Part shown: piece by piece, positions 4,812-32,321 of the stretch
Numbering within the stretch: the first letter of the stretch is position 1
Layout: the number at the start of each line of letters is the position of its first letter
Assembly: GCF_013415325.1 (NCBI RefSeq)
Contig: NZ_JACBYE010000027.1
Span: 1 to 54,859, forward strand
Length of the DNA stretch: 54,859 bases
Reading direction: 5' to 3'
DNA from: Sanguibacter inulinus
Lineage (GTDB): Bacteria; Actinomycetota; Actinomycetes; Actinomycetales; Cellulomonadaceae
Position numbers and translations under genes: made by a program
Notes under the pieces: model-generated
Database searches by the model: none
The model's input: the letters and a program-made list of their open reading frames with translations, nothing else
Told to the model about the DNA's origin: nothing

Positions 4812-5741
4812 ATGACACCCCAGGACGCTCACGCCACCTCCGGCCAGCGCGGTTGGCTGGCTGCTGACGGGACGAGGGACGAGACCTCCCCGCTCCCCGA
4901 GGAGTGGGTGATGGCCGCCTCGGAAGCCACGCCGCTGGGCCAGGCGATCGAGGCCTTCATCGCGCTGGACGCCCCGCCCGACGAGGAGCGCGACGCGGCC
5001 GTCAGGTCCTTGCGCGTACGAGGAGACATCGGGGCATACGTCACCGAGGTGCCCCGACACCTCGACAGGTTCCCGAACCTCACCGAGCTCTCGCTGGGTG
5101 CGGGCGTCGCCCCCACGATCGTCTCGACCATGACCGACGGTGCGATCCCGGACACCGTGACGACGCTCGAGGTCTGGACCGGCGGTGCCCCGACGCGGTG
5201 GCCACGCGGGATGGTGCTGCCCTCGGTGCGCAGGCTGCAGACCGACGGCCCGACGACCTTCACGGCTCAGACCTTCCCGAACCTCGAGCACGCCCACCTC
5301 GCGCCGACCAAGACGTCCTTCGAGGCCCTGCTCGCCCTGCCGAGGCTCGCCGCGCTGCAGCTGCGGACCGTGCCGCACCCGGCCCCGGAGATCTTCGAGA
5401 AGATCGCGCACCTGCCGCTCGTCGACCTCGGTCTGCTGGGCGGCCGCAAGATCACCGACCTGCGGGGCATCGAGCTGCTGCCTGGCTTGCGCCGGCTCCG
5501 GCTGCAGAGCCTGCCGGTCCTCACCTCGATCGCCGCCCTCGAGGGGCTCGAGCACCTCGAGGAGCTGCTGATCCTCTACTGCTCGCGGATCGAGGACATC
5601 GAGACCGTCACGAAGATCCCGTCGCTCGGCAGGTTCGACGCCTACGGCTGCACGGGCATCGGGCTCGAGGCCCTCGAGTCGTTCCTCGACGAGCACTCCG
5701 CGCACCGCACGCACCGTCGACCGGAAACGTCGACCGCCTGA
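4812..5741 (+). CDS. leucine-rich repeat protein, cytoplasmic
   Basis: A 309-residue protein with no signal peptide. From about residue 85 it shows irregular leucine-rich repeats (LTELSLGAG, VRRLQTDG, LAALQLRTV, LRRLRLQSLPVL, LEELLILYCSRI), consistent with a solenoid for protein binding. No attached catalytic domain is visible, and the partner is unknown. Two starts compete: ATG 4812 in leaderless context, and ATG 4911 (residue 34), which has GAGGAG six nt upstream; the first 33 residues carry no repeat. The gene ends 222 nt before the NRPS-associated peptide gene on the same strand, but nothing links it functionally to that cluster. Confidence 0.7.
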   Translation: MTPQDAHATSGQRGWLAADGTRDETSPLPEEWVMAASEATPLGQAIEAFIALDAPPDEERDAAVRSLRVRGDIGAYVTEVPRHLDRFPNLTELSLGAGVAPTIVSTMTDGAIPDTVTTLEVWTGGAPTRWPRGMVLPSVRRLQTDGPTTFTAQTFPNLEHAHLAPTKTSFEALLALPRLAALQLRTVPHPAPEIFEKIAHLPLVDLGLLGGRKITDLRGIELLPGLRRLRLQSLPVLTSIAALEGLEHLEELLILYCSRIEDIETVTKIPSLGRFDAYGCTGIGLEALESFLDEHSAHRTHRRPETSTA

Positions 5742-5963
5742 CCGGAGGGACACCGCAGCTCCCTGCACCTCGTACGTCGCCCCCTGCGCCTCGCACCCCG
5801 CACATCGCCCCCAGGACCCCGCACTCCGCACGAGTCTCGGTGCGGTGTCCGCCGCCCTCGCACCCCGAGATCCAGCCCAGACCCATCCACCCTGCTCCAG
5901 GCTCCGAACCCCTCGTGACGCTCCTCCCGGGGCGTCCACGAGACCGCACCGAAGGAGCACCTC
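5742..5963 (+). promoter_or_regulatory. intergenic region upstream of the NRPS cluster
   Basis: This 222-nt C-rich stretch must hold the cluster promoter unless transcription comes from the leucine-rich gene. I see short cytosine-rich direct repeats (variants of CCTCGCACCCCGCAC) and a weak inverted repeat CCGCAC/GTGCGG, but no convincing -35/-10 pair and no recognised regulator site. Confidence 0.35.
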
Positions 5964-6065
5964 ATGGACATCTGGACCGCACTGATCGAAGGCCCGCTCA
6001 TCCAGGGACCGCTGATCGACATCGGCGGCATCCTCAACTTCCTGCAGATCGGGCAGTTCCAGTAA
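5964..6065 (+). CDS. 33-aa hydrophobic peptide preceding the NRPS
   Basis: A short ORF with an excellent ribosome binding site (AAGGAG at 5952-5957, six nt from ATG) and a TAA stop. The product starts MDIWTALIEGPLIQGPLIDI and ends NFLQIGQFQ. It is rich in Ile, Leu, Gly and Gln, contains a duplicated GPLI unit, lacks Cys, Lys and Arg, and carries only three acidic residues. It sits 93 nt before the NRPS on the same strand, with two hairpins between. I do not recognise it. It may be a translated leader controlling NRPS expression, a small membrane-active peptide, or a small partner of the cluster. The start signal is too good to be noise; the function is unknown. Confidence 0.65.
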   Translation: MDIWTALIEGPLIQGPLIDIGGILNFLQIGQFQ

Positions 6066-6086
6066 GCCCTGCGGAACCCCGAGGTA

Positions 6087-6140
6087 CGTCGGGACGACCG
6101 ACGCAGCGACACGAGGCCTCGCCCCAGGGCGGGGCCTCGT
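6087..6140 (+). promoter_or_regulatory. tandem hairpins between peptide gene and NRPS start
   Basis: A first hairpin (CGTCGG 6087-6092, CCGACG 6098-6103, 5-nt loop) is followed by a strong one pairing 6111-6123 with 6128-6140: 13 bp including one T-G wobble, with loop CCAG. The second ends four nt before the GAGGAG binding site (6145-6150) of the NRPS GTG start. No T run follows. It could be an attenuator, a terminator with partial readthrough, or a structure controlling ribosome access. Confidence 0.55.
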
Positions 6141-6158
6141 CTGTGAGGAGAGCGACGC

Positions 6159-9100
6159 GTGACGAAGAACGAGCAGCACCACCAGGCCCAGGACCCCGAG
6201 ACCACCGAGACGCCGGCCGACCTGCGCCTCCGGCTGACCCCAGCGCAGCGCGGCATCTGGTACGCCCAGCAGCTCGACCCCGAGAACGCGACCTACCAGA
6301 TCGGCCAGTACCTTGACGTGCAGGGCGACGTCGACCCGCGGCTGCTGAGCATCGCGCTCACCAAGATCGTGCGGGACATCGACTCGATCAGCATGCGCTT
6401 CCGCGCCGACGACGACGGTCCCCACGCGGTCCGCCGCCGACCCGAGCCGACCGACGACCTGCTCGAGGTCGTCGACCTGCGCAGCGAGGACGTCGACGCA
6501 GCCTTCGACACCGCGCGCACCCGCATGGACGCCGAGATGACCACCCCGCGCGACATCGAGGGCGACGAGCTCTTCGGCGCGATCCTCTTCAGGCTCGCGG
6601 GGGACAGGTCGCTGTTCTTCCAGCGCGTCCACCACATCATGCTCGACGGCTATTCCGCCGTGATCGCCCTGCACTACCTGGCCCGTGTGTACACAGAGCT
6701 CGACAAGCGCGCCCCGACAGGGCTGCTGCTGCGACCTCTCGCGGGACGCGTGGCGCGCACGGCCGCGAAGACCCCGTCACCCTTCCCGAGCCACCACGAG
6801 CTCCTCGACGCCCTCGAGGAGTACCGCTCGTCCGAGGACCACACCGCCGACGAGGCGTTCTGGCGCGAGACCTTCGAGGAGGAGACCACGGTCGACGGCC
6901 TCGAGGGGACCACGGGCCGTGCCGCGACCCGCGTGGTCCGGGTCGCCGTGCCGCTGACCGACGAGCAGGCCGCGCCGCTCGCAGCCCTCGGCCGGGACCT
7001 GCCCAAGACGATGGTCGGGCTCATCGCTCTCTACCTCGCGAAGATCACCGGGCAGGAGACCGTCTCCCTCGGTCTCCCGGTGACCGCGCGACGCGGCAAG
7101 GTCGCGAAGTCGACCCCCTCGATGCTCTCGAGCATCTTGCCCGTCCGCGTCGAGGTGTCCCCGACGGCGACGGTCGCACAGACCGTCGCGCACGCCGGCG
7201 ACGTGCTGCGCGGTGTGGTCAAGCACCAGCGCTTCCGCACCGAAGACCTCCCGAGCGCCCCGTCGCAGGCGGGTCCCTCGGTCAACCTGCTGCCCGTGAT
7301 CGACGCGCTGCGCTTCGGCTCGGCGACCGGTGAGGTCCGCATCCTCTCGACAGGACCCGTGCACGACCTCTCCTTCGTGGTCTCCGGCCTCGAGTCGAGC
7401 GCCGCCGTCCCGACCCTCCAGCTCGAGGGTGACGCCGACCTGCACACCGTCGAGAGCCTCACCGGGCACGCCGAGCGCCTGCTCGCCCTCGTCGCCCAGG
7501 TGATCGACGAGCCCGCCGACGTCGCGGTGACCGACGCGCGCGTGGTCGCCGACGACGAGGTCGCCGGACTCCTCGAGCAGGGCGCCGGCCCCGAGCTGCC
7601 CATCGAGAGCGAGACCGTCCTCGAGGCCTTCGCTGCCGCAGCCGCGCGCCGCGGCGAGGACACCGCTGTCGTGGCGACCGACGGCACCTTCACCTTCGCC
7701 GAGCTCGACGCCGCGTCGACCCGGATGGCGCACCACCTCATCACCCAGGGCGTGGTCCCCGGGCGGTGCGTCGCCGTGCGCATCGAGCGCAGCAAGCACC
7801 TGCCGCTGCTCGTCCTCGCCGTGCTCAAGGCCGGCGGCGTGTACGTGCCGCTCGACCCCGAGTACCCGATCGACCGCGTCGCCGGGATGATCGAGGACTC
7901 CGAGCCCGCGCTGCTGCTCACCAGCCACCGCCAGGCAGAGCGCGACCGCGCCGCCGGGGGGTCGTGGGACGTGCCCTCGATCGCCGTCGACTCCGACACC
8001 GCCGCCGGGTGGCGCCGGTGCAGCGACGACGCGTCGGGCCTCCCGCAGCTCTTGGGCTCCGACCTCGCCTACGTCGTCTTCACCTCGGGCAGCACAGGCC
8101 GACCCAAGGGTGTGGGTGTCGAGCGTGTCGCGCTCCGCAACCTCTTCCAGCACCACAGGACCGACCTCTTCGACCCCGCCGCCGAGCGTCTGGGCCGACC
8201 CGTGCGCGTCGCGCACACCGCCGGGCTGTCCTTCGACGCGGCCTGGGACCCGTTGCTCTGGCTGTTCGCCGGGCACGAGCTCCACATGGTCGACGACGAG
8301 GTGCGCCGCGACCCGCAGCGCCTCGCCGACTACCTCTCCGAGGAGGGCATCGACTCGATCGAGACGACCCCGTCCTTCGCCGAGGCGCTGCTGGCCGCCG
8401 GTCTGTTCGAGCGCGACCCGCACCCGACCGTCGTGGCCCTCGGCGGGGAAGAGGTCGGCCCGTCGCTCTGGGACACACTCGGAGCCCTGGACGACGTGCA
8501 CGCCGTGAACTTCTACGGCCCGACCGAGGTGACCGTCGACAGCCTCGTCGCGACCATCACCGCGGGCGCGCCGCACATCGGCTCGTCGGTGCGCAACAGC
8601 CGCCACTACGTGCTCGACGCGAGCCTGAGCCCGGTGCCCGACCGCGCCGTCGGCGAGCTGTACCTCGCGGGCGTGAACGTCGCCCGCGGCTACGTGGGCC
8701 AGCCCGGCCTGAGCGCCGAGCGCTTCGTCGCCGACCCCTTCGCGAGCGACGGCTCCCGCATGTACCGCACGGGTGACGTGGTGCGCCGCCGCCACGACGG
8801 CTCGCTACGGTTCCTCGGGCGCATCGACGACCAGGTGAAGATCCGCGGCTACCGCGTCGAGCTGAGCGAGATCGAGGCCGCCATGCGGCGCCAGGACGGG
8901 GTCGTCGGCGCTGCCGCGATCGTCCAGGGCGAGGGCCCGGCGGCCCGCCTCGTCGGGTACGTGACCGGTGAGGGCGAGCCCGACACCCGGCTCGGCTCCC
9001 AGGTGCGGGCCGCGCTGCGTGCGGACCTGCCCGACTACATGGTGCCGAGCGCGATCATGACGCTCTCGGACCTGCCGCTCACCCCGAACGGCAAGCTCGA

Positions 9101-12100
9101 CCGCAGGGCGCTGCCCAGCCCCGAGCGCAGCACCGACGACTCGGCCCAGCAGCCGCGCACAGCGGTCCAGCGGACCGTCGCGACGGCCTTCGCCGAGGTC
9201 CTCGGCGTCGACTCTGTCGGCATCGAGGAGGACTTCTTCGCAGCCGGCGGGCACTCCTTGCTCGCCACGCGCCTCGCCGCGACCCTGACCACGGCCCTCG
9301 ACCGGACCGTCACGGTCCGCGACATCTTCGAGAAGCCCACGGTCGCCCAGCTCGCAGGGCTGGCCGAGGATGCCACGGACGACGAGGGTGCTGCAGGTGC
9401 CGGGCGACCCGTGCGCCTGGCACCCGCCGCGCGCCCGGACCGTCTCCCGGTCTCGCTCGCCCAGCGCCGCCTGTGGTTCCTCAACCGCCTCGAGCCCGGC
9501 TCGGCGGCGTACAACATCCCCGTCGTGCTGCACCTCGAGGGTCCCCTCGACGTGGCTGCGCTGCGCGCCGCCTTCGGTGACGTCGCCGCCCGGCACGAGC
9601 CCCTGCGCACGGTGTTCCCCTACGTCGACGGCGAGCCCGTCCAGGTGGTCCTCGACGGTGACGCCGCGGCCGTCCCGTTCACCTCGGTCGACGTGCCCGC
9701 CTCCCAGGTGGACGCCGTCGTCGAGCAGGAGGCGCTGCGGCCCTTCGACGTGACCGAGCAGACCCCGTTGCGTGCTGTCCTGCTGCGCACAGCGCCCGAC
9801 TCCCACGTGCTCGTCGCCACGATGCACCACATCGCCTCTGACGGCTGGTCCCTCGCGCCCTTCGCCCGGGACCTCTCGGTCGCCTACGCCGCCCGCGTCG
9901 AGGGCCGCGCCCCCGAGCAGGCCGCGCTGCCCGTCACCTACGCCGACTTCACGCTCTGGCAGCGCGAGCACCTCGGCGACCCCGCCGACGAGTCGAGCGT
10001 CCTGGCCGAGCAGCTCACCTACTGGCAGCGTGCCCTGGCCGGCGCCCCGGACGAGATCTCGCTGCCGCGCGACAGGTCCCGCGGGGCTGCCGACCCGACC
10101 GACCCCACCCAGCAGGGGGTCGGCGAGCTGGCCCTCGAGCTCGACCCCGCACGGCACGCCGCCGTCCGCGCGCTGGCCGCCGAGCACCGCACGAGCGTGT
10201 TCATCGTCCTGCACGCAGCGCTCGCGGTCGCCCTCGAGCAGCAGGGCGCGGGGGAGGACGTGGTCCTCGGCACACCCGTGGCCGGGCGCACCGACCCCCA
10301 GCTCGACGAGCTCGTCGGGTTCTTCGTCACCACTGTCGTCCTGCGCACCTCCTTGGCGCAGGACCCCACCCTCGCCGAGGTCCTCGGGCGGGTCCGTGCG
10401 GGCAACACCGAGGCCTACGCCCACCAGGACGTGCCCTTCGACTCCCTCGTCGACGCGCTGCGTCCGCCGCGCGTGGCCGACAGGCACCCGCTGTTCCAGG
10501 TGCTGCTCACGCTCCAGAGCAACGAGCCCGCCCAGATCGACCTCGCGGGTCTGACCGTGACGGTCCCCGGGCAGGTGACGAGCGCCGGGGTCAAGACCGA
10601 CCTGCTCGTCGACTTCCAGGCCCCGTCGGGTGACGACGGCCCGCTGGTCGGCACGCTCGGCTACGACCGCGCGCTCTTCGACGCCTCGACCGCCGAGCGC
10701 CTGCGCGACGCCGTGGACCGCGTGCTCACGGCCTTCGTCACGTCGACGGACAGCCGGATCTCGGACCTGCCCTCGGTCGACCCGCAGACCGCCGAGGTCC
10801 TCGAGGCGCAGAGCACCGGGCGCGAGCTGGCGACCAGCGGGACGGTCCTCGACCGCCTCGACGTGACCGTCGCCGAGCACGGCGACACCGTGGCCCTCGC
10901 CGACTCCCACGGATCGCTGAGCTTCTCGGCGCTCGACGAGCGGATCACCCGCGGTGCCCACGCCCTCGCCGCGCTCGGCGTGGTCCGCGGGGACCGGGTC
11001 GCCGTGGCACTGCCGCGGAGTACCGACGCCGTCGTGACGGTCCTGGCCGCACTGCGTGCCGGTGCCGTCGCCGTCCCGGTCGACGTCTCCTACCCGGCCG
11101 CGCGGATCAGCCAGATCCTCGTCGACAGCGAGGCCTCGGTGCTCGTCTCGGACGAGTCGCTCGCGAGCATGCTCGCCACAGGGACGGACGCCCCGGGTGC
11201 TGGCACGGCCGGACAGCTGCCGCCCGACCTCCTCGAGGAGCTCGTGACCGTCGCACCGGCCCAGCTGTTCGACTCGGTGCCTGCCGGCCAGCCCTTCCGT
11301 CTGCGGCCGGTCCGCAGCGACGACGTCGCGTACCTCGTCTACACCTCGGGGACCACGGGGACACCCAAGGGTGTCCAGGTGCCGCACTCGGCGCTGGCCA
11401 ACGTGCTCGTCCAGCACGAGGACACCCTTGTCGGGCCGCTCCGCGAGCAGCTCGCGGCGGTCGGCGGCGGAGACGAGACGACAGAGCCGCGCCTGCCGCG
11501 CATGCTCCACCTGTCGGGTCTCGGCTTCGACGCGGCCTGGGACCCGATCCTGTGGCTCGTCGCCGGGACCACCCTGCACATGGCCGACGACGTGACCCGC
11601 ACGGACGCCGAGGCCGTGGTCCAGGCTGTGTCCGAGCTCGGCATCGACGTGCTCGAGACGACACCGTCCTACGCCCAGCAGCTCGTGACTGTCGGTCTGC
11701 TCGACGGCGCAGCCGACCGCGAGGTCCCGCTGCTGGTCGCCGTGGGCGGCGAGGCCGTGCCCGGGACGCTCTGGGACCGGCTCGCCGACGCCCCCGGTGT
11801 CGCCGGCTGGAACCTCTACGGCCCGAGCGAGTTCACCGTGGACTCCGTGCTCGCCCCCGTCCGGCCCGGCCGGGTGACCATCGGTGGACCGATCGCCAAC
11901 GTCACCGCCCGCGTCCTCGACGCGACGCTCAGCGCTGTCCCGCCGGGCGTCGAGGGGGAGCTGTACCTGTCGGGGCTCTCCGAGGCGCACGGCTACCGTG
12001 GCCGCTCGGCCGAGACCGCCGCGCGGTTCGTCGCCGACCCGCGCGGCGACGGCACCCGGATGTACCGCACGGGGGACGTCGTCCGGCGACGCCTGACGGG

Positions 12101-15100
12101 TGAGCTCGAGTTCGTCCGCCGCGACGACGACCAGGTCAAGCTGCGCGGGTACCGCATCGAGGTCGAAGACGTCGAGCGCACCCTCGAGCGTGCTCCTTTT
12201 GTACGCACAGCGGTCGCCCGTGTGGTGACACCTGGCGGGCCGGACACCGCCCGCCTCGTCGCCTGGGTCGTCGTCGGCGCCTCGAAGGACTCCACACCGA
12301 AGAACACCGTCTCCGAGAACATCGCCTCGAAAGACGCCGCCTCGACCTCTGCGGTCCGCACCTTCGCGGCCTCCGAGCTGCCCGACTACATGGTGCCGAC
12401 CTCGATCACCGTGATCGACGCCGTGCCGCTGACACCCAACGGCAAGGTCGACGTCTCGGCCCTCCCAGAGCCCGGTGACCGTGGACCCTCGCGTGCTCCG
12501 CAGACCGACGACGAGCGGGCTCTCTGCGCGATCGTCGGGGAGGTCCTCGGGGTCCGCGACGTCGGTCTCGACGACGACTTCTTCGCCCTCGGCGGCCACT
12601 CGCTGCTCGCCGTAGCCCTCGCCGGACGGGTCCGCGACGAGCTCGGCGCGACCCTCCCGCTGCGCGCGGTCTTCGACGCCCCGACACCCGCGGCGCTGCT
12701 CGCGGCGATCGGACGCGGTGCGACGGCTGCCTCCGTGACAGGCTCCGGCGCGGCAGGTGGGACGAGCAGCACCACGGGTGCCCCGTCCACCAGCCCGGTC
12801 GACGGCCCCGTGCAGGGTCTTCGCTCCTGGGTCGCCGACCACCCGCGCCAGGACGGCGAGGAGATCCCGCTGTCCTCCGGTCAGGCCCGCCTGTGGTTCC
12901 TCAACAGGCTCGACCCGACGTCGGCCGAGTACTCGGTCGTCCTCCAGGTCGCGCTCTCCGGCGACCTCGACACCGCAGCCCTGGCCGGTGCAGTCGACGA
13001 CCTCGTGGCCCGCCACGAGGTGCTGCGCACGACGTACCCGGAGGTCGACGGGCGCCCGGTCCAGCGCATCCTCGACGCGCCGACCGGGATCGCCACCACT
13101 GAGCCCGTCGACACGACCACCGGCTTCGACCTCACCGTCGACCAGCCGTTGCGCGCGGCGATCGTCGAGACCGGCGCCGACAGGTGGCGCCTCGACCTGG
13201 TGATCCACCACATCGCGACCGACGGCGCCTCCCTGGCGCCCCTGGTCCGCGACCTCGCGGCCTCGTACTCGGCGCGTCGCAGCGGTTCGGCCAAGCTGCA
13301 GCGTCCCCTCGAGGTGCAGTACGCCGACGTCGCACGACGCCAGCGTGCCGTCGAGGCGGACGCGGCAGCCGCGGCCGCCGACGGATCCTCCTCGCAGGAC
13401 CCGCTGCTCGACGCGTGGCTCGAGGCGCTCGCCGGCGCCCCGGCCGAGCTCGAGCTGCCCGCTGACGGGCGCCGACCCGACACCGCCGCGCAGCCTGCGG
13501 CGCTCCTCGAGTTCGAGATCCCCGCAGACGTCGCCCAGAAGGTGAGCGCTGTCGCGGCCCGCCAGTCGGCGAGCGGGTTCCACGGGTGGCTCGCCGGTCT
13601 TGCCGGCTATCTGCAGCGCACGGGGGCGGGGGACGACGTGGTCGTCGGATCGCCCTCGGCGGGCCGGACCGACCCTGACGTGGCCGACCTCGTCGGTTTC
13701 TTCGTCAACACCCTGCCGCTGCGGGTCGACCTCAGCGACGGTGCACCGACCCTCGCCGACGCGATCAGCCGTGCCCGCACGGCGACCCTGACCGCGATCG
13801 ACCACGAGTCTGTGCCCTTCGAGCGGATCGTCGAGGCTGTCGCCCCCGAGCGTCGTCTCGGACGGCACCCGATCTTCCAGACCATGCTGTCCGTGGAGGA
13901 GCCGACAGGGCTGACCCTCGACCTCCCCGGTGTCCAGGCCCAGCCTGTCGCTCCGGGGACGACAGGCTCGGCCAAGGTCGACCTGTCCTTCACCCTGCGC
14001 CCCCGTGGCCGGGGACCTGCCGGGACAGGGAGCACCGACCAGGACGGGACTGTCGACGGGGTGCTCGAGTACAACTCCGCGATGTTCAGCGTCCACGCGG
14101 CCCGTGGGCTCGTCGACAGGTGGGTAGACTTCCTCCGCGAGGTCGCCGACGCCCCCGACGCGCCGATGCTCGACGTGACGCTCGCCCAGGGTTCTCTCGC
14201 GCCCCTCGACGCCTGGGCCTCGGTCCGCGAGCCCAGGCTCGTGCTCGACACCTTCGACGAGTCCGTCCGCAGGTTCGGCGAGCAGACCGCGATCGTCGGC
14301 ACAGGCCACGAGACCGGCGCGAGCCGGGTCCCGGGGGCCCAGGACCACGCCTTCGACGTGTTCCCCGCTGACGACGGGTCGCCCGAGAGTGCCGCCAGGT
14401 CGGAGGACAGGGTGCTGTCTGAGACGGCTGACGCGCAGACCGCGGACGCGGACTCCGAGACCGCGGGTGTGCCGTCGCTCGACTTCATCGGGCTCGACGC
14501 CCGCGTCTCGGCCCTCGCCGCGGGCCTCACCGCCCACGGCGTGCGCCCGGGCGAGGTCGTCGCGCTGCGTCTGCCGCGCTCGATCGACACCGTCGCAGCC
14601 CTGCTCGCCGTGTGGCGGGCGGGCGCCGTGGTCGCCCCTGTCGACGACGAGCTCCCTGCCGAGCGCGTCGCGAGCATGCTGGCGACCGCGAGCGCACGCC
14701 TCGTCGTGCACGCCCCGGGCGAGGAGGACGCAGACGGCGACGCCCTGCTCACGCACGAGGCGGCGCAGTCGGCCGGGATCGCGCCCGAGCGTGTGGTGAT
14801 GATCAGCGACCTGCTGACCGCGCGCGCCTCTCGCGCGACGTCCGACGGGCTGACCTCGTCCGACCGGCTGACCTCGTCCGCCGAGACGGCTCCGTCCGTC
14901 GAGACCACAGCGTCCGCCGAGGCGACCCCGGACGGTCTGCGGTTTGCGGATGGTCTGCGCTCCACCCGACCCTCCGTGACCGCCGACGACCCCGCCTATC
15001 TGATCTTCACGTCGGGGACGACGGGGGAGCCCAAGGCCGTCCAGGTGCCGCACGGCGCGCTCGCGAGCCTGCTCGTCTCGCACCGCGCGACGCTCATGCC

Positions 15101-17138
15101 CGACCCTGCCGCGGGCCGGGTGCGACTGGCGCACACCACGGGTGTCGGCTTCGACGCCGCGATGGACCCTGTCCTGTGGTTGGTGGCCGGGCACGAGGTG
15201 CACGTCGTCGCCGACGAGGTGCGCCGCGACCCGCAGGCGCTCGTCGCGCTCTTCGCCCAGCGTGGCATCGGTGCGTGGGAGACCACCCCGAGCTATGTGT
15301 CGGCCCTCGCCGGGCAGACCAGCCTCACGACGCTGCTCGACGACCGTCCGAGCGACGCGCCGTTCACGATGCTGCTCGGCGGCGAGGCCCTCGACGCCGG
15401 GCTGTGGGCCTGGCTGCGCGAGCGCCCCGCGGTCGAGGCGTGGAACCTGTACGGCCCGACCGAGGTGGGTGTCGACTCGCTCGTCGCCCGGGTGGGCGAC
15501 TCCCAGACCCCTGAGCTCGGTGCGACCACCCCGCACACCGTCGGTTACGTGCTCGACGAGCGCCTGCGCCCCGCGCTGCCCGGCAGCGTCGGGGAGCTGT
15601 GGCTCGCAGGCGACCAGCTGGCCCACGGCTACGCCGGACGCTCCGGGGCGACGGCGGACCGTTTTGTCGCGGACCCCTTCGCGGCCGACGGCAGCCGGAT
15701 GTACAGGACCGGTGACCTCGTCGTCGTGCACGGCCGAGGCGCCGGCGTGCGACCGAGCGTGGTGTCCCTGGGCCGCAGCGACGGCCAGGTGAAGATCCGC
15801 GGTCACCGTGTGGAGCCTGGAGAGGTCGAGGCGCTGCTGCGCGCCGCTGACGCTGTCGCCCAGGCCGTGGTGCGCCCTGTCGAGACAGGACGTGGCACGA
15901 GCCTCGGTGCCTGGGTGGTGCTCGCCGACGCGGCTGCTCACGCGGCGGATGTCACGGACTCCCTGCTCGCCGGGCTGCGCTCGCGGGTGCCCGACTACAT
16001 GGTGCCCGTGGCCGTGCGGGTCCTCGACGAGGTGCCGCTCACCCCGAACGGCAAGGTCGACGCCCGGGCGCTGCCCGAGCTCCAGACCGCCGGCACGGGC
16101 GGCCGACCGCCCCAGACCGCTGCGGAGCGTGCCGTCGCCGCGGCTTACGAGAGCGTGCTCGACGTCACCGGTGTCACGGCCGACGACTCGTTCTTCGAGC
16201 TCGGCGGGCACTCCTTCGTCGCCCAGCCGACCATCGCCGCCGTGAACTCCGCCCTGGGCACCTCGCTGCCCGTCCAGGCGCTGTTCCAGGCCCCGACTGT
16301 CGCTGCTCTCGCGGCGCTGTCGGGCACGGGTGACGTCGACATCACGGACAGCCTGCGGACGATCCTGCCGCTGCGCGCCGAGGGGACAGGTGCACCGGTC
16401 TTCGTGGTGCACCCCGCCACGGGGGTGAGCTGGAAGTACGGGGCGCTGCTCGGGCACCTCGAGAGCCGGCGCCCGGTCGTCGGCCTCCAGATGCCGGGCC
16501 TCGCCCCGGACGAGCCCGAGCCCGAGGCCGCCGGCACGCTCGACGAGATGCTCGACGTCTACCTCGACGCCGTCCGCGAGGTCCAGCCCGAGGGGCCGTA
16601 CCACCTCGTCGGCTGGTCCTTCGGTGGGCGTCTCGCGCAGCACCTCGCCGCGCGGCTGCGGTCGCAGGGCGACGAGGTCGGTCTGCTCGTCCTCCTGGAC
16701 GCCTACCCGACCCAGGAGTCGGCCCTGGCCGGGGTCGCCGCGGGTGACGCCATGTGGCGCGGGTTCCTCGACGCCAACGGGATCGCTGCACCCGACGACG
16801 TCGAGCTCGACGTCGACCAGGTGCTCGCGGCTCTCGCTGAGGCAGGCAACCCCCTCGCCGACGTCCCCGTCGAGTCCATCGAGCGGATGGTGCGCAGGTT
16901 CGTCCGCACGGGTGAGCTCTTCGACGCCACCCCCGTGCCAGTCCTCGACGGAGACCTGCACGTCGTCGAGGCCACCCGCGAGGTCCCGCCGGGCCGCCCG
17001 GCCCCGCAGGCCTGGGAGCCGCACGTGACGGGGGAGGTCACGACGAGCACGGTCGACGTGCGCCACTCCGACATGCTCTCGGACGAGGCGATGGGTGAGC
17101 TCGCGCCCATTCTCGACAGGCTGCTCGGACAAGGCTGA
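6159..17138 (+). CDS. three-module nonribosomal peptide synthetase (C-A-T-C-A-T-C-A-T-TE)
   Basis: A 3659-residue synthetase. Domain order with active sites: C1 (HHIMLDG 158-164), A1 (TSGSTG near 640), T1 (GGHSL, Ser1033), C2 (HHIASDG 1223-1229), A2 (TSGTTG near 1728), T2 (Ser2148), C3 (HHIATDG 2350-2356), A3 (TSGTTG near 2950), T3 (Ser3352), TE (GWSFG Ser3487, Asp3514, His3636). C1 resembles the EntF/DhbF starter-type condensation domain; C2 and C3 look like LCL domains; there is no epimerase, methylase or reductase. All A domains share FDAA(W/M)DP, ETTP before the lid, xYGP(T/S)E..VDS and NGK. Read against GrsA this gives nearly one code: D-A-(W or D)-E-(V/M)-(L/V)-(F/L)-V-D-K, the third position depending on a one-residue gap. 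E278 and D331 are shared with an ornithine code, so a basic residue is a reasonable but untested guess. A3 has two low-complexity inserts. GTG start with GAGGAG eight nt upstream. Confidence 0.95.
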   Translation: MTKNEQHHQAQDPETTETPADLRLRLTPAQRGIWYAQQLDPENATYQIGQYLDVQGDVDPRLLSIALTKIVRDIDSISMRFRADDDGPHAVRRRPEPTDDLLEVVDLRSEDVDAAFDTARTRMDAEMTTPRDIEGDELFGAILFRLAGDRSLFFQRVHHIMLDGYSAVIALHYLARVYTELDKRAPTGLLLRPLAGRVARTAAKTPSPFPSHHELLDALEEYRSSEDHTADEAFWRETFEEETTVDGLEGTTGRAATRVVRVAVPLTDEQAAPLAALGRDLPKTMVGLIALYLAKITGQETVSLGLPVTARRGKVAKSTPSMLSSILPVRVEVSPTATVAQTVAHAGDVLRGVVKHQRFRTEDLPSAPSQAGPSVNLLPVIDALRFGSATGEVRILSTGPVHDLSFVVSGLESSAAVPTLQLEGDADLHTVESLTGHAERLLALVAQVIDEPADVAVTDARVVADDEVAGLLEQGAGPELPIESETVLEAFAAAAARRGEDTAVVATDGTFTFAELDAASTRMAHHLITQGVVPGRCVAVRIERSKHLPLLVLAVLKAGGVYVPLDPEYPIDRVAGMIEDSEPALLLTSHRQAERDRAAGGSWDVPSIAVDSDTAAGWRRCSDDASGLPQLLGSDLAYVVFTSGSTGRPKGVGVERVALRNLFQHHRTDLFDPAAERLGRPVRVAHTAGLSFDAAWDPLLWLFAGHELHMVDDEVRRDPQRLADYLSEEGIDSIETTPSFAEALLAAGLFERDPHPTVVALGGEEVGPSLWDTLGALDDVHAVNFYGPTEVTVDSLVATITAGAPHIGSSVRNSRHYVLDASLSPVPDRAVGELYLAGVNVARGYVGQPGLSAERFVADPFASDGSRMYRTGDVVRRRHDGSLRFLGRIDDQVKIRGYRVELSEIEAAMRRQDGVVGAAAIVQGEGPAARLVGYVTGEGEPDTRLGSQVRAALRADLPDYMVPSAIMTLSDLPLTPNGKLDRRALPSPERSTDDSAQQPRTAVQRTVATAFAEVLGVDSVGIEEDFFAAGGHSLLATRLAATLTTALDRTVTVRDIFEKPTVAQLAGLAEDATDDEGAAGAGRPVRLAPAARPDRLPVSLAQRRLWFLNRLEPGSAAYNIPVVLHLEGPLDVAALRAAFGDVAARHEPLRTVFPYVDGEPVQVVLDGDAAAVPFTSVDVPASQVDAVVEQEALRPFDVTEQTPLRAVLLRTAPDSHVLVATMHHIASDGWSLAPFARDLSVAYAARVEGRAPEQAALPVTYADFTLWQREHLGDPADESSVLAEQLTYWQRALAGAPDEISLPRDRSRGAADPTDPTQQGVGELALELDPARHAAVRALAAEHRTSVFIVLHAALAVALEQQGAGEDVVLGTPVAGRTDPQLDELVGFFVTTVVLRTSLAQDPTLAEVLGRVRAGNTEAYAHQDVPFDSLVDALRPPRVADRHPLFQVLLTLQSNEPAQIDLAGLTVTVPGQVTSAGVKTDLLVDFQAPSGDDGPLVGTLGYDRALFDASTAERLRDAVDRVLTAFVTSTDSRISDLPSVDPQTAEVLEAQSTGRELATSGTVLDRLDVTVAEHGDTVALADSHGSLSFSALDERITRGAHALAALGVVRGDRVAVALPRSTDAVVTVLAALRAGAVAVPVDVSYPAARISQILVDSEASVLVSDESLASMLATGTDAPGAGTAGQLPPDLLEELVTVAPAQLFDSVPAGQPFRLRPVRSDDVAYLVYTSGTTGTPKGVQVPHSALANVLVQHEDTLVGPLREQLAAVGGGDETTEPRLPRMLHLSGLGFDAAWDPILWLVAGTTLHMADDVTRTDAEAVVQAVSELGIDVLETTPSYAQQLVTVGLLDGAADREVPLLVAVGGEAVPGTLWDRLADAPGVAGWNLYGPSEFTVDSVLAPVRPGRVTIGGPIANVTARVLDATLSAVPPGVEGELYLSGLSEAHGYRGRSAETAARFVADPRGDGTRMYRTGDVVRRRLTGELEFVRRDDDQVKLRGYRIEVEDVERTLERAPFVRTAVARVVTPGGPDTARLVAWVVVGASKDSTPKNTVSENIASKDAASTSAVRTFAASELPDYMVPTSITVIDAVPLTPNGKVDVSALPEPGDRGPSRAPQTDDERALCAIVGEVLGVRDVGLDDDFFALGGHSLLAVALAGRVRDELGATLPLRAVFDAPTPAALLAAIGRGATAASVTGSGAAGGTSSTTGAPSTSPVDGPVQGLRSWVADHPRQDGEEIPLSSGQARLWFLNRLDPTSAEYSVVLQVALSGDLDTAALAGAVDDLVARHEVLRTTYPEVDGRPVQRILDAPTGIATTEPVDTTTGFDLTVDQPLRAAIVETGADRWRLDLVIHHIATDGASLAPLVRDLAASYSARRSGSAKLQRPLEVQYADVARRQRAVEADAAAAAADGSSSQDPLLDAWLEALAGAPAELELPADGRRPDTAAQPAALLEFEIPADVAQKVSAVAARQSASGFHGWLAGLAGYLQRTGAGDDVVVGSPSAGRTDPDVADLVGFFVNTLPLRVDLSDGAPTLADAISRARTATLTAIDHESVPFERIVEAVAPERRLGRHPIFQTMLSVEEPTGLTLDLPGVQAQPVAPGTTGSAKVDLSFTLRPRGRGPAGTGSTDQDGTVDGVLEYNSAMFSVHAARGLVDRWVDFLREVADAPDAPMLDVTLAQGSLAPLDAWASVREPRLVLDTFDESVRRFGEQTAIVGTGHETGASRVPGAQDHAFDVFPADDGSPESAARSEDRVLSETADAQTADADSETAGVPSLDFIGLDARVSALAAGLTAHGVRPGEVVALRLPRSIDTVAALLAVWRAGAVVAPVDDELPAERVASMLATASARLVVHAPGEEDADGDALLTHEAAQSAGIAPERVVMISDLLTARASRATSDGLTSSDRLTSSAETAPSVETTASAEATPDGLRFADGLRSTRPSVTADDPAYLIFTSGTTGEPKAVQVPHGALASLLVSHRATLMPDPAAGRVRLAHTTGVGFDAAMDPVLWLVAGHEVHVVADEVRRDPQALVALFAQRGIGAWETTPSYVSALAGQTSLTTLLDDRPSDAPFTMLLGGEALDAGLWAWLRERPAVEAWNLYGPTEVGVDSLVARVGDSQTPELGATTPHTVGYVLDERLRPALPGSVGELWLAGDQLAHGYAGRSGATADRFVADPFAADGSRMYRTGDLVVVHGRGAGVRPSVVSLGRSDGQVKIRGHRVEPGEVEALLRAADAVAQAVVRPVETGRGTSLGAWVVLADAAAHAADVTDSLLAGLRSRVPDYMVPVAVRVLDEVPLTPNGKVDARALPELQTAGTGGRPPQTAAERAVAAAYESVLDVTGVTADDSFFELGGHSFVAQPTIAAVNSALGTSLPVQALFQAPTVAALAALSGTGDVDITDSLRTILPLRAEGTGAPVFVVHPATGVSWKYGALLGHLESRRPVVGLQMPGLAPDEPEPEAAGTLDEMLDVYLDAVREVQPEGPYHLVGWSFGGRLAQHLAARLRSQGDEVGLLVLLDAYPTQESALAGVAAGDAMWRGFLDANGIAAPDDVELDVDQVLAALAEAGNPLADVPVESIERMVRRFVRTGELFDATPVPVLDGDLHVVEATREVPPGRPAPQAWEPHVTGEVTTSTVDVRHSDMLSDEAMGELAPILDRLLGQG

Positions 17139-17143
17139 GCTGC

Positions 17144-17176
17144 GCCGGGACAGCGCCGTCTCGGCGCTGTCCCGGC
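17144..17176 (+). terminator. strong hairpin just after the NRPS stop
   Basis: A perfect 15-bp inverted repeat (17144-17158 with 17162-17176) with a TCT loop begins five bases after the NRPS stop. There is no T run. It probably limits readthrough into, or stabilises the 3' end before, the MbtH-exporter-PPTase genes. Confidence 0.6.
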
Positions 17177-17259
17177 ACCGTCTCCGCGGTGGCTCGTGCT
17201 GTCCCTGCGGCGTCCCGGCGCCGCCACCAGCACGTCTGTCGTGGAGTCCTGGTCGACCT

Positions 17260-17291
17260 GGATGGGTCCGGATCTCGGTCCGGACCCATCC
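17260..17291 (+). promoter_or_regulatory. second inverted repeat upstream of the MbtH-like gene
   Basis: A perfect 12-bp inverted repeat (GGATGGGTCCGG at 17260-17271 and its complement at 17280-17291) with an 8-nt loop lies about 60 nt before the MbtH-like start. It could be a second terminator or an operator for the downstream four-gene unit. Confidence 0.4.
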
Positions 17292-17350
17292 GCACGCCCG
17301 ACGGCGGCGAACCACCCTCGACGACAGCCGACACGACGAGAGGAAAGTCG

Positions 17351-17560
17351 ATGACGAACCCCTTCGACGACAACGACGCACGCTTCCGGGTCCTCGTGAA
17401 CAGCGTCAACCAGCACTCCCTGTGGCCCGAGTTCGCCGACGTCCCCCAGGGGTGGGTGGCCGTCTTCGGCCCCGCCGTGAAGGACGAGGCGCTGGGCTAC
17501 GTGACCGAGCACTGGCAGGACATCACCCCGGTGCTCGACCGGGAGCGCGTCGCCTCGTGA
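17351..17560 (+). CDS. MbtH-like protein
   Basis: A 69-residue MbtH-family protein, the small partner that binds and activates NRPS adenylation domains. It contains QHSLWPEFADVPQGW near residues 21-35, followed by YVTEHWQDITP. Compared with the family signature NxExQxSxWP...PxGW...WTDxRP, the Glu is Val and the C-terminal WTDxRP reads WQDITP, so this is a divergent member; the Trp and Pro residues that contact the A domain are kept. Ribosome binding site AGAGGAAA precedes the ATG. Its stop overlaps the GTG of the exporter ATPase (GTGA), making a coupled operon with the next three genes. Confidence 0.93.
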   Translation: MTNPFDDNDARFRVLVNSVNQHSLWPEFADVPQGWVAVFGPAVKDEALGYVTEHWQDITPVLDRERVAS

Positions 17561-18561
17561 TCTCCATCCACGGACTGACCAAGCGCTTCGGCGACTTCCA
17601 GGCGCTCGCCGGTGTGGAGCTCGACGTCCCCGAGGGGACCGTCCAGGGGCTCCTCGGGCCGAACGGAGCTGGCAAGACGACCACGGTGCGGGTCTTGACG
17701 ACCCTCCTCGCACCCGACTCGGGTGACGTGCGGGTCGCCGGGCACTCCGTCCAGACCGACGGGCACCTCGTCCGGCGCAGCCTCGGGGTCTCCGGCCAGT
17801 ACGCGGCCGTCGACGAGAAGCTCAGCGGGTTCGAGAACCTCACGATGGTCGGCGAGCTCTACGGCATGCGCCGCTCCGACGCGAAGGCCCGTGCCCGCGA
17901 GCTGCTCCGCGACTTCCGTCTCGACGGGGTCTCCGACTCCCAGCAGGCCGGGTCGTACTCTGGCGGCATGAAGCGACGGCTCGACCTCGCCGGCGCCATC
18001 GTCGCCAGGCCCCCGGTCGTCATCCTCGACGAGCCGACGACGGGTCTCGACCCCCGCGGGCGCCGCGACACCTGGGACGCGATCGAGTCCCTCGCGACTG
18101 CCGGCACCACGGTCTTGCTCACCACGCAGTACCTCGAAGAGGCCGACCAGCTGGCCGACTCGATCGCCGTGATCGACTCCGGCGCGATCATCGCCGAGGG
18201 CACCGCGACCGAGCTCAAGGCGCAGGCCGGCGGCGCGTGGATCGACATCGTGCTCGCCCCTGGCGCAGACCTGGGCGCGGCCCTGGCCGCAGCCCGCCGC
18301 ACGGCCGACGACGCCCTCCTCGACGAGAGGTCGCGGCGCCTGACAGCGCGCGCGACAGGGGGTAGCGACGCGTTCCGCACCGTGCTCTCCGCGCTCGCGG
18401 ACGCCCGGGTCGAGGTCGCCGAGGCCGCCCTGCGCCAGCCGACCCTCGACGAGGTCTTCCTGCGTCTGACGGGCAGCCCCGCAGAGTCCCTGGACGCTGA
18501 CGAGACCGCCGAAGTTGACGAACCGGCCCACGCCCCGACCGGAGAAGTGGTGAGCGCATGA
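17557..18561 (+). CDS. ABC exporter ATP-binding protein, DrrA-like
   Basis: A 334-residue ATPase of the daunorubicin-resistance DrrA type that would energise export of the NRPS product. Visible motifs: Walker A GPNGAGKTTT near residue 34, Q-loop region, signature YSGGMKRRLDLA near 133, Walker B VVILDEPTTGLD near 152, and switch region TTQYLEEAD. The C-terminal 100 residues are the extension typical of DrrA proteins, ending in an acidic tail. Start is the GTG overlapping the MbtH-like stop; the open frame extends upstream but without homology. It overlaps the permease gene by ATGA. The substrate is inferred from context. Confidence 0.9.
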   Translation: MISIHGLTKRFGDFQALAGVELDVPEGTVQGLLGPNGAGKTTTVRVLTTLLAPDSGDVRVAGHSVQTDGHLVRRSLGVSGQYAAVDEKLSGFENLTMVGELYGMRRSDAKARARELLRDFRLDGVSDSQQAGSYSGGMKRRLDLAGAIVARPPVVILDEPTTGLDPRGRRDTWDAIESLATAGTTVLLTTQYLEEADQLADSIAVIDSGAIIAEGTATELKAQAGGAWIDIVLAPGADLGAALAAARRTADDALLDERSRRLTARATGGSDAFRTVLSALADARVEVAEAALRQPTLDEVFLRLTGSPAESLDADETAEVDEPAHAPTGEVVSA

Positions 18562-19511
18562 GCACCGCGACGACGTCCGAGAGCACCAGCAGCACCCACT
18601 CCTTCAGCAGCTCCGGTCGCTCCAGCGCCGCCGGTGCTGTCGCGACCCGCCAGACCGCCGGGGTGACCCCGGGTGGGCCGATCGAGATCCCGCCGCCGCG
18701 CGGGGGAGCCTTCGCCCCGCTGGTCTCTGCAGTCCGTGACGGCTGGGTCGTGGCCCGCCGCAACGTGGTCAACGTGCGCCGGACCCCCGGCGCGCTGGTC
18801 ACCGGGGTCGCCCAGCCGATCATCTTCGTGCTGATCCTCGCCTTCGTCTTCGGCGGGGCGCTGGGCGGCGACGCCTACCGTGAGTTCCTCATCGGAGGCA
18901 TCCTCGCGCAGACCCTGACCTTCAACTCCTCCTTCACGGCCGTGTACCTGGCCAAGGACCTGCAGTCCGGTCTCATCGACCGTTTCAGGGCCCTGCCGAT
19001 GTCGCGGGTCGGTGTGATCCTCGGTCGCACCACCTCCGACCTCGTCACGAGCGGCATCTCGATCGTCGTGATCGTCGCGTGCGGGCTGGCCATCGGCTGG
19101 CGTGTGCACACAGGGGTCGGGCAGGTCCTCGTGACCTTCGTGCTGCTCGTGCTCTTCGCCTTCGCGACGTCGTGGATCGGTGCGGCCATCGCGCTGACGG
19201 CCCGCAGTGTCGAGGTCGCCCAGAGCCTCGGGCTCCTGTGGTTGTTCCCCGTGTGCTTCATCTCGGGTGCCTTCGTCTCGGCCGACACCCTCCCGGGCGT
19301 CCTGCGGACGATCGCGGAGTGGAACCCGGTGACCGCGGTGGCGACAGCGGTCCGGCAGGGCTTCGGCAACGCGCCGCCCGCAGGTTTTGAGGTCGCTGGC
19401 GGGTGGCCCGCCGAGCATGCGACGCTGTACGCGTTCGTGTGCTGCATCGCCATCATCGCCGTCTTCGCCCCTGTCGCGGTCGGCCAGTACCGGAGGATCA
19501 GCAAGCGATGA
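18558..19511 (+). CDS. ABC-2 type exporter permease, DrrB-like
   Basis: A 317-residue ABC-2 family permease partnering the preceding ATPase. About 70 residues of Ser/Thr- and Pro-rich cytoplasmic N-terminus precede six membrane helices (roughly 75-95, 110-130, 155-180, 187-212, 218-240 and 285-305). The segments FRALPMSRVGVILGR and WNPVTAVATAVRQ are typical of the family. Start and stop are both coupled (ATGA with the ATPase, ATGA with the PPTase). The long low-complexity N-terminus is unusual for DrrB proteins. Role in exporting the peptide is inferred from the operon. Confidence 0.9.
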   Translation: MSTATTSESTSSTHSFSSSGRSSAAGAVATRQTAGVTPGGPIEIPPPRGGAFAPLVSAVRDGWVVARRNVVNVRRTPGALVTGVAQPIIFVLILAFVFGGALGGDAYREFLIGGILAQTLTFNSSFTAVYLAKDLQSGLIDRFRALPMSRVGVILGRTTSDLVTSGISIVVIVACGLAIGWRVHTGVGQVLVTFVLLVLFAFATSWIGAAIALTARSVEVAQSLGLLWLFPVCFISGAFVSADTLPGVLRTIAEWNPVTAVATAVRQGFGNAPPAGFEVAGGWPAEHATLYAFVCCIAIIAVFAPVAVGQYRRISKR

Positions 19512-20515
19512 TCACACTGCTCAGCGCGACGGTCGACGAGATCCTCGCTGTCTGCACCACCGTCGGAGGTCCCTCCGACGGTGGTGCGGTCGTCGACCCC
19601 GGGGCTCAGACAGCGGATGCCCATGGCGGGCCGGCCGTCCAGGGAGAGCTCGCGTCTGCCGGTCTGCGGACCGGTGACGTGCTCGCCGTCGGGACAGGTC
19701 CGGACCGCGGCCGTGCGCACGGTCTCGAGGCGGCGCTGGGTCTGGTCGACGACGTCGACAGGGCAGCGGTCGCCGCCAAGCAGCGGCCCTCCGACGCCCG
19801 CCGGACCCTGGCGGGCCGGGCGGCCCTGCGGCTGCTCGTCGCCGCGCGGGTCGGTGCCCCGGCCACCAGCGCCGCCGACATCGTCGTGGACCGCACCTGC
19901 CTCACCTGCGGCGAGCAGCACGGACGTCCACGTGTCGACGGTCTCTCGGTGAGCACGTCGAGCGCTGGAGACCGGGTGCTCGTCGCTGTCGCCGACGCGA
20001 AGGTCGAGGTGGGCGTCGACGTCGAGCTGGTGCCCGACGTGCTCTTCGAGGGCTTCGACGACTTCGCCCTGCACCCCGCCGAGCGTCGCTCCTTGCCCCA
20101 GGGCCCGGGGATGATCTTGGGCCGCATCGGCAGCTGGGTCGAGAAGGAGGCTGTGCTCAAGGCCGCGGGCATCGGTCTGACGACCCCGCTCGAAGACCTG
20201 CTCGTGTCTGCCGCCCCTGACGACAGGGTGGTGCCGTCCTCGGTCGAGATGATCGGGGCGTGGGAGTGGCGACCCGTCGTCCAGACGGCGTCACGCCAGC
20301 TGCTCGGGCTCTCGGTCACGGCGCTGCCGAGCCCCGAGGGCTACAGGTGCGCGATCGCCGCCCGCGAGCCGCGCCGCATCCGCTCGGTCCCGGTGGGGTC
20401 TCTCGCCGGTGAGCACCCGACGGCGCCGCCGTCGAGCACCCAGCGCGCCGCCGCGCTCGCGTCGTCGTCCCGCATGGCTGCGGCCGTGGCCGCCTTCCGC
20501 GGGCTGACATCCTGA
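19508..20515 (+). CDS. Sfp-type 4'-phosphopantetheinyl transferase
   Basis: A 335-residue enzyme that would transfer phosphopantetheine from CoA to the three carrier-domain serines of the NRPS. The family motifs are present: CLTCGEQHGRP near 137-147, the Mg-binding GVDVELV near 169-175, and WVEKEAVLKAAGIGL near 210-224, which matches the family (W/F)xxKEAxxK element. The protein is longer than the usual 220-250 residues, with a variable N-terminal region of about 100 residues and a C-terminal Ser/Ala-rich tail of about 50. It is the last gene of the cluster, coupled to the permease by ATGA and followed by a strong hairpin. Confidence 0.9.
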   Translation: MITLLSATVDEILAVCTTVGGPSDGGAVVDPGAQTADAHGGPAVQGELASAGLRTGDVLAVGTGPDRGRAHGLEAALGLVDDVDRAAVAAKQRPSDARRTLAGRAALRLLVAARVGAPATSAADIVVDRTCLTCGEQHGRPRVDGLSVSTSSAGDRVLVAVADAKVEVGVDVELVPDVLFEGFDDFALHPAERRSLPQGPGMILGRIGSWVEKEAVLKAAGIGLTTPLEDLLVSAAPDDRVVPSSVEMIGAWEWRPVVQTASRQLLGLSVTALPSPEGYRCAIAAREPRRIRSVPVGSLAGEHPTAPPSSTQRAAALASSSRMAAAVAAFRGLTS

Positions 20516-24252: not shown

Positions 24253-24260
24253 GATCACTC

Positions 24261-24296
<36 letters not shown>

Positions 24297-24360
24297 GAGG
24301 GTGTGGGTGTGCGTGCGGTCGGGCTGTGGGAGCACGCAGGCAGGGGGTGCGGGCTGGACA

Positions 24361-24399
24361 CGCCGCGGGCGGGGAGCGTGCTGCTCCCCACCCGCGGCG
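24361..24399 (-). terminator. terminator after the second GH43 gene
   Basis: A 17-bp stem pairs 24361-24377 with 24383-24399 over a 5-nt loop, six bases after the stop at 24405. The single mismatch becomes a U-G wobble on the minus strand only, consistent with use in that direction. Confidence 0.7.
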
Positions 24400-24404
24400 C
24401 GTGG

Positions 24405-28319: not shown

Positions 28320-28387
28320 CGTCGATCACCGTTTCGTCAGGGATGGTCCCCGGCCCCAGGGCGCGCACGACCTGGGACCGGGGGCGG

Positions 28388-28415
28388 CGGGCCCGTGCGA
28401 CGGTGCACGGGCCCG
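28388..28415 (-). terminator. terminator between importer operon and GH43 gene
   Basis: A perfect 11-bp inverted repeat (CGGGCCCGTGC at 28388-28398 and its complement at 28405-28415) with a 6-nt loop lies 160 nt after the YjfF-like stop and 69 nt before the GH43 start. The rest of 28320-28574 is low-complexity GTG/CAG-rich sequence without a visible gene. Confidence 0.6.
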
Positions 28416-28574
28416 TCAGGGGGACGGGTGCTGCTGGTGCTCAGGGGGCGCTGTCGAGCGGGTCGGGCGGGTGGTGCTGTCGAGCGTGGCGGGTGGTGGG
28501 TCGTGCAGGTCGAGCAGGCAGTGCAGACAGTGCAGGCAGGGCGAGCACGGCTGTGGTGCAGCCGGGTGCCCGCC

Positions 28575-32175: not shown

Positions 32176-32230
32176 GTCTTCGCCTCGTCGTTCGTGCTCG
32201 TCGTTCGTGGCTCGGGTGCGGGTGCGTGCG

Positions 32231-32306
32231 CAGCGGTGCCGCAGTGCCGCGCTGTGCAGCGGTGCCGCTGTGCCGCGCTGTGCAGCGGTGCCGCAGTGCA
32301 GCTGTG
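32231..32306. repeat. 26-bp direct repeats between binding-protein and ATPase genes
   Basis: Two copies of a 26-bp unit beginning CAGCGGTGCCGC (32231-32256 and 32257-32282, one difference) and a shortened third copy to 32306, which then degenerates into GTGCAGC repeats. They lie in the 5' region of the ATPase gene on the minus strand. Confidence 0.8.
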
Positions 32307-32321
32307 CAGCTGTGCAGCAGT

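Follow-up and report, generated by a model that had tools for sequence, protein, structure and literature searches.

Is the 33-codon open reading frame (ORF) that lies directly upstream of a giant nonribosomal peptide synthetase (NRPS) gene in Sanguibacter inulinus a translated leader, or is it a gene for a small protein in its own right? The question is raised by a stretch of 54,859 nucleotides (contig NZ_JACBYE010000027.1, positions 1 to 54,859 of the forward strand; the window), for which an original prediction, made from the sequence alone, had described the ORF and two hairpins behind it as the arrangement of a translated leader controlling the NRPS, allowing at the same time that the ORF could be a real small protein of the cluster. 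We find that the ORF is a protein-coding gene leading a five-gene cassette behind a SigK-type promoter. Most likely the encoded peptide is a partner of the NRPS system that, judged from the N-termini of its relatives, is exported or associated with the membrane. The elements that frame the ORF are listed here, with G003 denoting a second Sanguibacter genome.

5964..6065, plus strand: 33-aa peptide gene, encoding MDIWTALIEGPLIQGPLIDIGGILNFLQIGQFQ, a short form within a conserved family whose members end in GQFQ
5951..5957, plus strand: ribosome-binding site of the peptide gene (GAAGGAG), read from the sequence and with the same letters in G003
6145..6150, plus strand: ribosome-binding site of the NRPS gene (GAGGAG), read from the sequence

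The local description given in the original prediction holds. The ribosome-binding site of the peptide gene lies six bases ahead of the ATG, the stop codon precedes the NRPS gene by 93 nt because the latter starts with GTG at 6159, and GPLI is present twice in the peptide. A Pfam scan of the window peptide found no family, and the AlphaFold model of the 33-mer (mean predicted local distance difference test score of 66, weak helix at residues 20-31) is too weak for interpretation. A longer frame with a hidden signal sequence was ruled out in the window, where the open frame has only 48 codons and the end of the -10 box precedes the peptide ATG by 54 bases.

The distribution of the peptide across the order ties it to the NRPS. 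When the NRPS N-terminus was scanned against genome contigs, 55 loci were obtained, 19 with at least 51% identity and 36 with at most 36%. The peptide lies upstream of the NRPS in 19 of the 19 close loci (in Serinibacter, Agrococcus, Citricoccus, Leucobacter, Curtobacterium, Pseudoclavibacter, Nesterenkonia, Kocuria and Brachybacterium) and in none of the 36 distant ones, which include NRPS of Bacillus and Paenibacillus and at which the 1200 bases before each match were inspected; best local peptide scores are 20-34 at the distant loci versus 95-119 for eight genome hits (one query). The original prediction had staked its case on the ORF and its amino acid conservation recurring upstream of close NRPS orthologs, and both do. 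Among 396 genomes sampled from the order the NRPS occurs in 21 (E ≤ 1e-40), which span five different family labels, and in each of them the peptide profile finds a match that extends into the C-terminal part, the weakest of which (G378, E 0.006) was confirmed by reading the sequence. The peptide sits just upstream of the NRPS on one contig in 20 of these genomes, while in G514 the two are found at the ends of two contigs. G424 is the sole additional genome of the 396 with a match reaching the end of the profile, and in it the NRPS is missing; its locus (L146, L196) is a cassette relic in which the signal region of the peptide is frame-broken and GQFQQ is no longer followed by a stop codon. 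The co-occurrence in 21 of 21 genomes and the decay in G424 thus indicate that peptide and NRPS are kept, or decay, together, and these counts lend good support to the suggestion that the ORF is a genuine small protein of the cluster. A 10-residue back-translated pattern gave no matches over the genome contigs, a search from which records near the window's genome were possibly excluded.

Within the genus, peptide and NRPS are found in two of six Sanguibacter genomes, with the remaining four lacking a match to either, and in a family sample of 221 genomes the same two are the only ones with a convincing peptide match (next E-value 0.1). Of the 99 coding bases of the ORF, two differ between the window and G003, the only congener carrying the cassette; one of these changes is silent and the other is from Ile to Phe. 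One of the two sequences has TAA as its stop codon and the other TAG, and positions 5923-6020 form an identical block of 98 bases. Among 3626 overlapping 33-codon stretches along the NRPS gene, 13 show as few differences as the ORF (mean of 19.9), so that its conservation exceeds chance. Directly upstream, at 5700-5880, identity is about 30% and the sequences cannot be aligned; the conservation begins at the SigK-type promoter. The genes upstream of the window peptide (BrkB, leucine-rich repeat (LRR)) are common only to the window and G003, and the LRR-like protein directly upstream (4812-5741, sub-threshold LRR_4 match) is so placed elsewhere in G003 only among the regions compared.

The 33 residues of the window are the shortest form of the family, 28 of whose 36 members have 69-97 residues. 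A Sec-type N-terminus is recognized by eye in 25 of the 28 long members (25/36 overall); its marks are a positive charge and a hydrophobic stretch, together with A-x-A-like sites and a linker of Ala, Ser and Thr ahead of the conserved part, as in the Pseudoclavibacter start MKKTTTRTIASLSTAAALSLGAVALTAAPASAADLAPASSVSTTASGALINGPLIDGPLIDLGGLLNSLQIGQFQ. The Citricoccus form and two Nesterenkonia forms carry a membrane-type N-terminus. The C-terminus is GQFQ, or GQFQ followed by one or two residues, in 36 of 36 members. The distance from GPLI to GQFQ is variable among members, and in genus group g30 the LIxGP unit is lengthened into a Gly/Leu/Asn repeat. The comparison of nonsynonymous with synonymous change (pN/pS), a check put forward in the original prediction, gave ratios of 0-0.35 over the last 28 codons in nine groups and of 0.16-0.79 over the N-terminal part in the seven groups where it was computable. 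By this measure the last 28 codons are under purifying selection, and the values imply that the ORF is translated and that selection acts on the protein. For six relatives no family match was found in Pfam and nothing above cut-off in NCBIfam (best chance-level E of 0.0099). A plasmid or phage origin was considered and set aside, one long peptide form having given no match.

The genes that follow the peptide are conserved as a unit. The cassette consists, in order, of the peptide, an NRPS with three condensation-adenylation-thiolation (C-A-T) modules and a thioesterase (TE), an ATP-binding cassette (ABC) ATPase, an ABC-2 permease and a 4'-phosphopantetheinyl transferase (PPTase).

6159..17138, plus strand: NRPS, C-A-T-C-A-T-C-A-T-TE, 3659 aa (Pfam; motifs)
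17095..18561, plus strand: ABC transporter ATPase, start codon uncertain (Pfam; kept in the cassette)
18558..19511, plus strand: ABC-2 type permease (Pfam; kept in the cassette)
19403..20515, plus strand: PPTase, start codon uncertain (Pfam; kept in the cassette)

The order NRPS, ABC ATPase, ABC-2 permease, PPTase is found in 20 of 20 NRPS-bearing regions, where the L182 contig ends before the last two cassette genes and the L197 contig starts at the NRPS. Each of the 21 NRPS scanned has the motif FDA[AS][WML]DP in its three A domains, and the remaining pocket motifs are matched in most, not all, of the 21; the similarity of the pocket motifs in the three A domains suggests that like building blocks are incorporated. 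The NCBIfam models EntF and MxcG give strong but sub-threshold matches to the NRPS, a likeness to siderophore NRPS of the EntF/DhbF type, and its distant relatives include NRPS of Bacillus and Paenibacillus. The enzyme differs from the EntF/DhbF type in having three C-A-T modules with similar A-domain pocket motifs, and no starter-acid gene is found among the cassette genes, to which this search was confined. Past the cassette, on the minus strand (20668-36635), lie two large GH43/laminin-G/aBig_2 proteins, a sugar ABC transporter set and a LacI regulator, a region that looks like a sugar-utilisation island.

The cassette is preceded by a two-box motif in which the conservation with G003 begins.

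5883..5909, plus strand: SigK-type promoter, CCATCC (5883-5888), 15-base spacer, CCGAAC (5904-5909), identified as a two-box motif

CCAWCC-N15/16-CCGAAY or a close variant stands upstream of the peptide gene in 36 of 36 regions. It begins 73-112 bases ahead of the start codon; 29 regions match at 11 or 12 of the 12 positions and the other 7 at 10. We take this motif to be the SigK consensus of mycobacteria. SigK is a stress-type sigma factor of the extracytoplasmic function (ECF) class whose known regulon in Actinobacteria comprises sigK-rskA, fasciclin antigens and dipZ, and which is best known from mycobacterial surface antigens. In the 4.26-Mb genome that contains the window (G000) the strict motif occurs four times and its reversed control not once. 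The three sites outside the cassette belong to one sigK-rskA/fasciclin locus, with one site before the sigma factor and two in tandem before a fasciclin-domain gene, the start of which reads as a lipoprotein signal (tandem sites at L204, 8559-8667). With 228.7 bits, the sigma factor of this locus scores above the cut-off of 226 of the SigK model NF007228; behind it comes RskA (PF10099), which was sought in this genome, and a DipZ-like DsbD/thioredoxin gene without a strict site of its own adjoins the fasciclin gene. A second pair of a sigma factor and an RskA-like protein is encoded outside the window at C26:32642-33926. Across the sampled genomes a SigK-like gene (E ≤ 3e-50) is present in 21 of 21 with the cassette versus 18 of 28 without it, relatedness not being controlled. 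The cassette resembles the SigK regulon in its two-box promoter at 15/16-base spacing and in the placement of the genome's other strict sites before sigK-rskA and the fasciclin lipoprotein gene, and it differs in that an NRPS cassette with a small peptide was not found as a member in literature searches (titles, abstract openings). On the evidence of the motif and these sites, the cassette very probably belongs to the SigK regulon. No sigma-70 promoter or T-tailed terminator was detected in 5700-6300, and no Rfam element in the window reached its gathering score.

The two hairpins described in the original prediction, the second of 13 bp and ending four nt before the NRPS ribosome-binding site, were both found.

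6087..6103, plus strand: hairpin 1, 6 bp, in 5 of 5 Sanguibacter/Serinibacter-group sequences
6111..6140, plus strand: hairpin 2, 13 bp, four-base loop, no T-run, in 5 of 5 Sanguibacter/Serinibacter-group sequences

Each has one pair with a compensatory change; in hairpin 1 one end pair is broken in one sequence, and in hairpin 2 the two outermost pairs are broken in 2 and 1 sequences. Taken together over the five sequences, 20 consensus pairs include two changed on both sides and three towards the outside that are disrupted in one or two members. Four bases separate the end of hairpin 2 from the ribosome-binding site at 6145, and the fold of 6064-6161 is more stable than that of shuffled sequences (z of -2.34, 4 of 200 shuffles equally good). 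Elsewhere in the family the spacer varies: folding energies are -34 to -55 kcal/mol in the Sanguibacter/Serinibacter group, Agrococcus, Pseudoclavibacter and Leucobacter, -4 to -18 kcal/mol in Citricoccus, Kocuria, Brachybacterium and three of six f7/g31 sequences, and mostly intermediate in the others, values that are not strictly comparable because spacer lengths run from 47 to 121 bases. The hairpins of Agrococcus, Pseudoclavibacter and Leucobacter differ in sequence from those of the Sanguibacter/Serinibacter group. Between peptide and NRPS, L145 and L148 (g30) have a strong hairpin followed by TGCTTTT, and L187 has a strong hairpin without T's. In 33 sequences (35 taken, L069 and L136 dropped since their NRPS start was not recognized) the NRPS ribosome-binding site was evaluated for pairing with the RNA ahead of it, which is not systematically stronger than in shuffles (mean z of -0.04; 8 of 33 below -1, the window included, and 4 above +1), and a general switch masking the NRPS start was rejected. 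In the window itself the site is predicted to be masked (unpaired probability of 0.02 vs a null of 0.33), so that a local masking effect there is possible. Being kept in part of the family and showing no systematic masking, the hairpins are lineage-specific fine-tuning and not the core of the system.

From the coding conservation, the tight linkage to the NRPS and the common promoter motif we infer that the peptide is a product and not a switch, and that its most probable role is to work alongside the exported product of the NRPS, on the cell surface or at the membrane, a reading to which we give about even confidence. The motif and gene order suggest that the SigK-type promoter would drive a single message with the peptide first, and the peptide would be translated from its own ribosome-binding site, as the site itself and the selection on the protein indicate. 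To judge from the N-termini, in most lineages the peptide would be exported by Sec and then lose its signal sequence, leaving a hydrophobic repeat (LIxGPLIxGP...) and an invariant GQFQ tail that may work jointly with the exported NRPS product, at the surface or at the membrane. The signal-less peptide of Sanguibacter and its Serinibacter relatives would therefore stay at the membrane or exit by another route, possibly the ABC exporter of the cassette. Where hairpins are present they could set the relative amounts of peptide and NRPS, as a partial brake on read-through or as protection of an mRNA end. The hairpin and TGCTTTT of L145 and L148 count for the peptide as product, their placement resembling that found where a gene for an abundantly made small product precedes those of its enzymes. 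A bolder form of this account, which we put forward tentatively and regard as rather unlikely, would have an obligate, mostly Sec-exported ribosomal peptide and the product of a trimodular NRPS make up a two-component extracellular system under SigK control; in its boldest version the GQFQ tail may be the meeting point with the NRPS product, by binding or covalent joining.

Several observations weigh against an exported product under SigK control. The signal calls rest on charge, hydropathy and A-x-A-like sites judged by eye, and 8 of the 36 members have no recognizable signal (the window, G003, three from the Serinibacter group, the 37-aa Agrococcus baldri form and two 49-aa Kocuria-type forms), which is awkward for an exported product. 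The pN/pS pairs inside a group share sequences, the Sanguibacter pair contributes only one silent and one replacement change, and the Curtobacterium core (0.34) is no more constrained than its N-terminal part (0.35). Concerning linkage, locus and genome counts overlap (L065, L079 and L118 are G357, G564 and G446), the search at the distant loci covered 1200 bases only and some of those matches may sit inside a longer NRPS gene, and 18 further genomes have weak partial peptide matches (E ≥ 4.6e-4), taken as chance likeness, that do not reach the C-terminal end. Domain motifs are missing from some of the NRPS (first C in G344, third C in G378, third T and TE in G466), and in many relatives the 278-type or the last pocket motif is missing from one A domain. 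The two-box consensus was derived from the same sequences that were later scored, with ties favouring a spacing near 16, and 131 of 720 mononucleotide shuffles reached at least 10 of 12 matches (none at 12, 9 at 11, 122 at 10). Eight of the 21 cassette genomes score under the cut-off of the SigK model. Finally, a relaxed SigK pattern is not specific in every one of 29 genomes scanned: it is commoner than its reversed control in 25, ties with it in 2 (G003, G005) and is rarer in 2 (G002, 3 vs 4; G413, 15 vs 16), with cassette sites identified among the matches listed, and it also beats the control in genomes without a strong SigK match (G164, G205, G208, G134).

The conserved stretch of about 28 C-terminal residues is always in cis with the NRPS, finishes 0-2 residues short of the stop codon and is roughly as long as the ribosome exit tunnel, features that are equally in keeping with an arrest peptide of the SecM/MifM/TnaC style. 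On that reading the ribosome would stall near the GQFQ-stop in a way governed by export or by the NRPS product, and the stalling would alter NRPS expression. With SecM, MifM, VemP and TnaC the peptide shares its cis position directly upstream of the NRPS, the conserved C-terminus at the stop and an N-terminus that varies and mostly includes a signal or membrane segment, and its joint decay with the NRPS in G424, the strong hairpins before the NRPS in several groups and the predicted masking in the window would all be accommodated. Here, however, the downstream gene is an NRPS, no known arrest motif is recognized and there is no general RNA switch, the NRPS ribosome-binding site having no general pairing with upstream RNA and spacer folding being weak in several groups (Citricoccus, Kocuria, Brachybacterium and three of six f7/g31 sequences). 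Neither the GPLI-GQFQ distance nor the spacing from peptide to NRPS (47 to 121 bases in 31 sequences) is constant. We consider stalling improbable, though it is the main rival to a product. The claim of a translated leader controlling the NRPS is weakened by the purifying selection, by the absence of strong hairpins from several groups that keep the peptide and by the lack of general masking, although the site is predicted to be masked in the window. Its narrower form, a classical amino acid attenuator in which the peptide itself would be unimportant, has the short ORF and hairpins ahead of a biosynthetic gene to recommend it and is barely credible: there is no run of one codon, which the original prediction had noted, the peptide sequence is under purifying selection, the window contains no T-run terminator and strong hairpins are not conserved family-wide.

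The peptide could instead be a cytoplasmic or membrane helper of the NRPS machinery, serving in assembly, as an exporter subunit or in self-protection, with the signal used only for membrane placement. Its constant pairing with NRPS, exporter and PPTase, the membrane-type N-termini of Citricoccus and Nesterenkonia and the existence of leaderless forms are in keeping with this. However, the A-x-A-like cleavage sites of most long forms argue for release, and no match to any family of NRPS helpers was found in Pfam or NCBIfam; we regard a helper as quite unlikely. MbtH-like partner proteins are likewise small and encoded beside an NRPS, but the peptide differs from them in its sequence, in lacking an MbtH domain and in the signal sequences of its family. 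A pheromone, in which an exported precursor would be trimmed to a C-terminal IGQFQ pentapeptide that signals back, is very unlikely: the small exported precursor with its short conserved C-terminus does resemble Phr/PapR-type precursors, but GQFQ is invariant across families whereas pheromones diversify, conservation extends well upstream of the pentapeptide, and among the five cassette genes, which were the ones examined, no receptor-type regulator, RRNPP included, is found. We favour the peptide as a product that acts alongside the exported NRPS product.

What goes beyond the original prediction is the SigK-type promoter, the five-gene cassette and the presence of signal sequences in the relatives. 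Literature searches covering titles and abstract openings returned nothing on the peptide family or on its pairing with an NRPS and a SigK-type promoter; subscription papers lay mostly outside these searches, and absence from print is therefore not established. Small ORFs ahead of biosynthetic genes are easily overlooked or labelled as leaders, and the peptide described here is a marker for a class of NRPS cassettes on which these searches likewise returned nothing. The SigK-type promoter ties these cassettes to the SigK regulon and suggests a way of switching them on. If it is true that the peptide and the NRPS product cooperate, the cassette would represent an unusual pairing of ribosomal and nonribosomal chemistry.

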